Below, piece after piece: positions 45,323 to 46,974 of a DNA stretch of 64,000 bases. How positions within the stretch are numbered: position 1 is the first letter of the stretch; each line of letters starts with the position of its first letter. This DNA is from Actinomycetota bacterium (GTDB lineage Bacteria > Actinomycetota > Acidimicrobiia > Acidimicrobiales > MedAcidi-G1). A program made the translations under genes and the position numbers. The stretch is taken from assembly GCA_014381745.1 (NCBI GenBank), contig JACNLA010000032.1, positions 1 to 64,000 of the forward strand. Direction: 5' to 3'. Below the pieces are notes generated by a model. It did no database searches. It had not been told where the DNA came from and saw only the letters and a list, made by a program, of their open reading frames with translations.

Positions 45323-45349
45323 CGCCGCAGATACGAGGAGACGGAGTCC

Positions 45350-46525
45350 ATGGGCGACGAGCTGATCAGACGGGAGCTGGCCGATCTGGAGGGCTACGTC
45401 TTCGACGAGGTTCCATGGACCGCCCCGCGCCCGCTTTCAGAAAGCCGCGTGGCCGTGGTCACCACGGCTGGGCTGAGGTCTGAGGGTGACCCGGACTGGA
45501 ATCCCGGCGACCAGTCGTTCACCGTCCTGTCGGGCGACCGAGATGACCTCGTGCTGTCGCACTACAGCCCCAACTTCGACAGGACAGGCTGGATCGTCGA
45601 CCCCAACGTCGTGTTGCCGATCGACCGCCTCGACGAGATGGCCGCTGAGGGCGTTGTCGGTTCGGTGGCCGACGTCCACATCTCGTTCATGGGTGCACAA
45701 ATCGACCACACCCTCGAGACCATCAGGCTGGATACAGGGCCAGCCGCCGCCCGTGCCCTGCTGGACGACGGCGTCGACGTGGTCCTGCTCACACCCGTTT
45801 GACCTCTGTGCACGCGTACCGTGGGTACGCTCGCATCGGTCCTTGAAGAAGCCGGAATCGCCACGGTTGCACTGTCGCTCATCCGCCAGCAGGCGGAGAC
45901 CACGAGGCCGCCCCGTGCACTCCACTGCGAGTTCCCCCTGGGACGACCGCTGGGACACCCCGGCGATCCGGCATTCCAGCGAAGCGTCCTTGACGCCGCG
46001 TTCGCCCTGTTGGATGAACCGGAGGGGCCGGTTCTCGTTGACTTTCCCGAGGAGATCACCGACGACTCTGACGCACCTCTGGTGTGCACGATTCCCCCCG
46101 CCGACAGCGGCGACGTTCACCCCGCCGAGGCTGAGGCCAGGGGCCTGCTCCCGGCATGGAAGCGGAGCACCGACACCTACGGTCGCTCAACCGTCGGAAA
46201 GGTCGTGACCGCCGAGGATGTTCCCGGGGTCGTAGGGCTCTTTGCCCGAGTCGCCGCCGGGGAACCGTGGCAGGAGGTCGGCCTTCCCGGAGACCCCACC
46301 AAGGCCGCGGCGGACGTACGCAACTACTACGAGGAGGCGGCTCTGTCGCTCACCGAGGCGGTTCCCGGAGCCCGTCAGGCCGAATCCTGGTTCGTGGGTC
46401 ACACAGCTGCCGGCGACGTCATCCAGCGTGCCCGGGTGGTCATGAAGGAACAGGGTGCCAACTTCTACTTCTGGTACTACCTGCTACCCGCCACCCAGCA
46501 CCACGACCCTGGGGACGAATCATGA
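45350..46525 (+). CDS. GrdB/PrdB-family selenoprotein (glycine/sarcosine/betaine/proline reductase selenoprotein B-like), UGA read as Sec151
   Basis: One continuous frame of 391 residues interrupted only by TGA at 45800-45802. Before it are family blocks VAVVTTAGL, SPNFDRTGW, VLPIDRLDEMAAEG, HISFMGAQ and DDGVDVVLLTPV. After it, in the same frame, are PLCTRTVGTLASVLEEAGIA and RPPRALHCEFPLGRPLG. Read through, the site is TPV-U-PLC, a U-x-x-C redox motif at the catalytic position of GrdB/PrdB proteins (Cys in many homologues). A matching stem-loop follows the TGA. The classic enzymes reductively cleave glycine, betaine or D-proline; the substrate of this lone B-like subunit is unknown, and no A/C or proprotein partners are nearby. 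The stop overlaps the DUF1330 gene (ATGA). selA, selB, selC and selD would have to lie elsewhere. Confidence 0.82.
45800..45802 (+). other. In-frame UGA, probable selenocysteine codon
   Basis: Codon 151 of the frame starting at 45350. Conserved protein sequence continues on both sides, and the next Cys is three codons downstream (U-P-L-C). Confidence 0.8.
45809..45835 (+). promoter_or_regulatory. Bacterial SECIS-like stem-loop
   Basis: TGC, internal loop AC/TC, GCGTACC, loop GTG (45821-45823), GGTACGC, GCA. The upper 7-bp stem is perfect. The apical loop begins 18 nt after the UGA and starts with G, within the range described for bacterial SECIS elements read by SelB. Confidence 0.75.
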
Positions 46526-46974
46526 ACGACCTTCTTTCCCATGCAGGCGACGGTGACACGTCGCCGATCGAGCCCAGCCGGGAACAACTCAGGGTCCTGT
46601 TGGAGCTTGGCCATGAGGGCCCAGTTCACATGGTGAACCTGCTCCGGTTCAGGGAGGTTGCGGAATACCCGGAGGGTTGGGACGGACCGACCGGGACGGG
46701 CGAGGAGGCGTATGCCCGCTACGGGCTGGTAGCCGTCGCACGGGTAGCGGACCTCGGCGGGTGTGTGGTCACGTTCGGTCCGGTAGAGGCCCTCGCCATC
46801 GGCCCCTCCGACTGTCGTTGGGACCAGGTCGCCGTTATCGAGTATCCGGACATGAGGAGCTTCCTCGCGCTTACTGAGGATCCTGTCTACGTGGATGCGC
46901 TGGTCCACCGCAATGCCGGACTTGCCGAAACCCAGGTGCTCGCCGTGAACCCGATAGTCGGTAGGGCAACCTGA
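46522..46974 (+). CDS. DUF1330-like protein coupled to the selenoprotein
   Basis: 150 residues with a dimeric alpha-beta barrel pattern typical of DUF1330 (GPVHMVNLLRFRE, YARYG, WDQVAVIEYPDMRSFLALTEDPVY). These proteins are small and mostly uncharacterised. ATG 46522 overlaps the selenoprotein stop as ATGA, so both are translated together and probably act in one process. Confidence 0.75.
   Translation: MNDLLSHAGDGDTSPIEPSREQLRVLLELGHEGPVHMVNLLRFREVAEYPEGWDGPTGTGEEAYARYGLVAVARVADLGGCVVTFGPVEALAIGPSDCRWDQVAVIEYPDMRSFLALTEDPVYVDALVHRNAGLAETQVLAVNPIVGRAT

Follow-up and report, generated by a model that had tools for sequence, protein, structure and literature searches.

A long PrdB-like selenoprotein with an added helical domain in an actinobacterium, a probable stand-alone selenol reductase

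We analysed a 64,000-nucleotide stretch of a contig from an Acidimicrobiales genome (hereafter the window) and found that positions 45350–46525 almost certainly constitute a single selenoprotein gene in which UGA 45800–45802 is decoded as selenocysteine (Sec). The explanation that we judge best overall, and likely correct, is that of a Sec-decoded PrdB-like protein that carries an extra helical domain and would work as a stand-alone selenol reductase. The features of the locus, with the evidence behind each, are as follows.

45335–45340, plus strand: likely ribosome-binding site GAGGAG, 9 nt before ATG 45350 (sequence; inference)
45350–46525, plus strand: PrdB-like selenoprotein gene, 391 residues including Sec151 (translation; PF07355 and TIGR04483 matches; read-through homologues)
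45410–46054, plus strand: PrdB-like core, residues 21–235, Rossmann-like alpha/beta (AlphaFold2; tblastn to annotated PrdB)
45800–45802, plus strand: UGA codon, Sec151 in UPLC (alignment with the PrdB TGA and with homologue Cys; TGA in 80/80 loci)
45801–45841, plus strand: bacterial SECIS element, with a lower helix, a 7-bp upper stem 45814–45820/45824–45830 and apical loop GUG 45821–45823 (fold, covariation, synonymous constraint)
46061–46522, plus strand: C-terminal helical domain, residues 238–391, missing from PrdB (alignments; separate structure prediction)
46522–46974, plus strand: DUF1330-family gene (PF07045), its start overlapping the selenoprotein stop as ATGA (Pfam match)

The frame that starts at ATG 45350 is open up to TGA 45800–45802 and then continues in phase to TGA 46523–46525. 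The sequence-only reading had described two same-phase frames parted by a TGA, and translation agrees: read-through yields a 391-residue product with U151 within TPV-U-PLC. A plain ORF list splits this gene and assigns the second half a GTG start at 45821, precisely the false start foreseen for standard gene calling. A codon-composition scan of the window for other genes split by a TGA was set aside, since it did not detect this one. In annotated PrdB genes (Terrisporobacter L156 and Peptoclostridium L157) an in-frame TGA occupies the same alignment column as this UGA, and the column is Cys in two alphaproteobacterial homologues (L158, L159), which places the TGA where Cys or Sec had been expected. 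The UxxC site, with Sec at the PrdB position, is therefore present in the alignment. One full-length homologue also has Cys at the site (TPACPMC).

The codon is highly conserved. Matches occur in 139 of 397 genomes from the host's order, and about 100 genomes contain the long form of the protein, nearly all with one in-frame TGA; codon 151 is TGA in 30/30 aligned homologues from the order (49–91% identical). Named genomes provided 373 relatives, mostly from Acidimicrobiia and other Actinomycetota, and TGA occupies codon 151 in 80/80 loci representing the best 80 of them. Of the two search patterns used for relatives, one required Cys at the Sec position and the other left the position untouched; the search was therefore not biased toward TGA. 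Close homologues ending at the TGA, which would have told against decoding, were not seen, as the relatives read through. Viral contigs yielded no relatives. In a tree of the core, long forms split from all short forms with a branch support of 100, and the Cys form is nested among the long forms. By these sequence comparisons, the long form of ~390 residues is a supported clade, widespread in aquatic actinobacteria predicted to respire oxygen. In one relative (G189:C1:16536–17126, L151), a copy consists of a single open frame that matches the second half alone, as a frameshift or a fusion might leave it.

The 43 bases from the UGA onward fold at –20.3 kcal/mol (z –2.95) into a SECIS-like hairpin with a GUG apical loop and a 7-bp upper stem, 18 nt after the UGA. 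The false GTG start at 45821 coincides with this apical loop. The hairpin satisfies published bacterial SECIS constraints (PMC13188914, where PrdB/GrdB family chemistry is also reviewed), and its pair 18–28 alternates between C-G and U-A, as expected of covariation (13/29 homologues). Moreover, synonymous constraint is maximal directly after the UGA, with a codon identity of 0.63 at codons 154–165 versus a gene mean of 0.40 (79 homologues, pairs <65% identical, conserved residues only; 12-codon windows, sd 0.054). The full-length Cys homologue has no such hairpin (fold z –0.83). A Sec paralogue encoded in the same genome has a hairpin with a z of –2.28 and an apical sequence, ACCGUGGGU, identical to that of the main gene. 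An Rfam search of the 64-kb window and of the hairpin returned no credible match, an outcome that was expected because bacterial SECIS elements vary in sequence.

The host genome (2.19 Mb, 96% complete) encodes the machinery for Sec decoding. A tRNA-Sec with a UCA anticodon lies at C16:32864, selA and selB are adjacent at C16:45680 and 46851, and selD is located at C8:12185–13108 (L018); a search for selA, selB, selC and selD, proposed as a check by the sequence-only reading, thus recovers all four. The selD gene has an in-frame TGA within a GAG-U-GC motif, and its product is itself a predicted selenoprotein. Across genomes, selA is present in 94/100 of those with the long form versus 143/297 of those without it (Fisher test, P-value 2e–18, shared ancestry being ignored). 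In the 6/100 genomes with the long form in which no selA was found, completeness is 74–84% for five and 93% for one (G299). In one relative the long-form gene is located ~1.3 kb before selA (G325:C17:242000–254000, L154), an arrangement that is not general. The paralogue noted above is a second PrdB-like selenoprotein (G000:C2, ~30.3–31.1 kb; L153:8281–9096, minus strand), a shorter form with an in-frame TGA as PV-U-PVC and a SECIS hairpin. The sequence-only reading had mentioned neither this paralogue nor the SECIS element nor the C-terminal domain that PrdB lacks.

The assignment to a GrdB/PrdB-like family holds in part. Pfam GRDB (PF07355) matches residues 17–148 with 35.2 bits, above its gathering cut-off of 22, and the match is confined to profile positions 210–345 of 347. 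The best NCBIfam model is that of PrdB (TIGR04483; 107.9 bits, residues 26–222), and this score lies under the equivalog cut-off of 300 bits. PrdB is hence the closest match, but the protein does not score as a PrdB equivalog, and the GRDB profile is covered over its C-terminal part only. An AlphaFold2 model built from 45 sequences (mean pLDDT 93.2, pTM 0.92) predicts a Rossmann-like alpha/beta core up to about residue 237 followed by a helical domain, with Sec151 placed between strand 144–148 and helix 154–167. The C-terminal domain, in which Cys246, Glu262, Arg272, Glu328 and Trp347 are invariant in alignments, is predicted with a pLDDT of 89 when modelled alone. Its best match to solved structures has a Z of 3.7, with no Foldseek hit at E <0.001; none of these matches is credible, which is not proof of a new fold. 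For the whole model, Foldseek likewise gave no hit below E 0.001, and the best VIA Z, 7.8, was to generic Rossmann-like folds and is uninformative. A sequence search of the PDB returned nothing credible.

Partner subunits were sought by family. Neither GrdA (PF04723) nor GrdE/PrdA (PF09338) was found in the 96%-complete host genome, although the same searches matched 14/376 and 15/376 genomes of the phylum, respectively. The description of a lone B-type subunit therefore stands, with the caveat that family searches could miss a partner belonging to another protein family. We found no constant neighbour across 80 loci; no other family occurs within 2.6 kb in more than 15/81 loci. Immediate neighbours (n = 98) include MFS transporters (9), acyl-CoA dehydrogenases (6), enoyl-CoA hydratases (5) and luciferase-like monooxygenases (4), a neighbourhood too mixed for the substrate to be named from it. 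In the window, the upstream genes on the opposite strand encode a gamma-glutamyltranspeptidase, a polyketide-cyclase-like protein and a luciferase-like monooxygenase, and downstream lie DUF1330, acyl-CoA dehydrogenase, molybdenum hydroxylase and aminotransferase genes. The DUF1330 gene is possibly co-translated with the selenoprotein gene, but that its product is a partner is doubtful; this start recurs behind the gene in 1/3 genus relatives examined. In several marine relatives, a same-strand gene of ~270 residues is located directly 3′ of the selenoprotein gene (L063:6927–7748, L057:9177–9986, L065:9176–9973), and no Pfam family matches the copy in L063. The host genome also encodes three haem-copper oxidase subunits, and the host therefore very probably respires oxygen.

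In PrdB and GrdB, the Sec selenolate attacks a carbon of a substrate that is activated by the pyruvoyl group of the partner subunit, and the substrates are amino acids and their derivatives. Since the active-site core is kept, and neither a known partner nor a constant neighbour was found, a stand-alone selenol reductase is the simplest reading. We propose that the hairpin at 45801–45841, bound by SelB with Sec-tRNA(UCA), would direct Sec insertion at residue 151. Located where a helix begins, the Sec151 selenolate would then attack a small organic substrate at an electrophilic atom. Cys154, and perhaps the invariant Cys246 too, would form a selenenylsulfide with release of the reduced product, and thioredoxin or a low-molecular-weight thiol of the cell would reset the enzyme. 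Unlike in PrdB and GrdB, no pyruvoyl partner would activate an amino acid, and the substrate would have to be electrophilic by itself. This chemistry, including the role of the UxxC motif and the ability to work alone, we infer from sequence and regard as probable, somewhat less firmly so than the overall explanation. We would extend it tentatively: the long form may represent a class of Sec enzymes of oxygen-respiring aquatic bacteria that cleave bonds reductively, as PrdB does, in the absence of a pyruvoyl partner, with the built-in helical domain, of unsolved fold, supplying a third catalytic Cys and binding and activating the substrate. We searched the literature for Cys homologues located in gene clusters for degradation and found none.

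Other explanations of function have to be weighed against this one. The clear homology to PrdB, Sec position included, and the fact that an annotated prdB gene examined adjoins prdA could indicate that the protein belongs to an amino-acid reductase complex as its B-type subunit, in which case the pyruvoyl partner would have diverged beyond known families or be encoded elsewhere in the genome. However, the PF09338 and PF04723 searches that matched 15 and 14 other genomes were blank in the host, the 80 loci share no constant neighbour, and the added domain sits where a subunit contact could be; we consider such a complex improbable. A role in redox defence or redox sensing (the handling of peroxides, disulfides or electrophiles) rather than in catabolism is less easily set aside, yet still rather unlikely. 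UxxC is a common thiol-redox motif of marine selenoproteins (PMC2398784), the host appears to respire oxygen, and the gene is tied to no single pathway. On the other hand, the fold is not thioredoxin-like, as judged from the model and its weak fold matches, and the relatives with known chemistry, PrdB and GrdB, act on amino acids and derivatives.

The possibility that there is no selenoprotein at all fares far worse. Two separate genes, namely a PrdB-like fragment ending at the UGA and a second protein starting from GTG 45821, would match the standard ORF list. Yet conserved motifs cross the UGA, which bears out the claim that both halves belong to one family, the putative GTG start is the apical loop of the SECIS element, and the codon that is TGA in 80/80 loci is Cys in a continuous homologue. 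The probability of this arrangement is next to nil. For a pseudogene or a sequencing error we found no supporting point: independent genomes carry the same TGA, which excludes the latter, both halves are conserved, and the genome possesses the Sec decoding machinery. We regard it as practically negligible. The stand-alone selenol reductase thus remains our preferred reading.

PrdB-like selenoproteins as such are not new and have been known since 2005. Selenoproteins listed as 'Proline reductase PrdB, UxxC' rank among the most common in marine metagenomes, with 42 sequences in the Sargasso Sea data (2005, PMC1088965) and 235 in the GOS data (2008, PMC2398784), and they share with the long form the Pfam family, the UxxC motif and the marine habitat. 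The portions of the two accounts considered here mention neither a C-terminal domain nor a host group, and their sequences may include the long form. The alphaproteobacterial proteins L158 and L159, annotated as 'glycine/sarcosine/betaine reductase selenoprotein B family protein', have a homologous core and, like the long form, neither prdA nor grdA adjoining. However, they carry Cys instead of Sec (CPVC/CPIC at the Sec site), span ~300 residues and lack the C-terminal domain. With respect to GrdB/GrdF/GrdH (PF07355, TIGR01917/01918), the long form matches the C-terminal part of the profile and exceeds the Pfam cut-off, but it lacks the first ~200 profile positions, falls under the NCBIfam cut-offs and comes without a detectable GrdA or GrdE.

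The closest counterpart is PrdB itself (TIGR04483; L156, L157), with 35–36% identity over residues 21–235 (tblastn). The in-frame TGA falls in the same alignment column, UxxC is kept, and H71, D77, D84, U151, C154 and R189 are common to both. However, PrdB has ~240 residues versus 391 in the long form, and the long form scores under the curated PrdB cut-off and occurs in a host that has no PrdA-family match and is predicted to respire oxygen. What is distinct, and well supported by sequence comparison, is a long, partner-less form with an added domain that is PrdB-like over residues 21–235 only. The known chemistry of PrdB/UxxC relatives comes from anaerobic amino-acid fermenters with a partner subunit, whereas the partner-less long form belongs to actinobacteria that very probably respire oxygen, and its active site is predicted to comprise U151, C154 and C246. 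The locus also provides an example of gene callers splitting one gene by taking a SECIS loop for a start codon.
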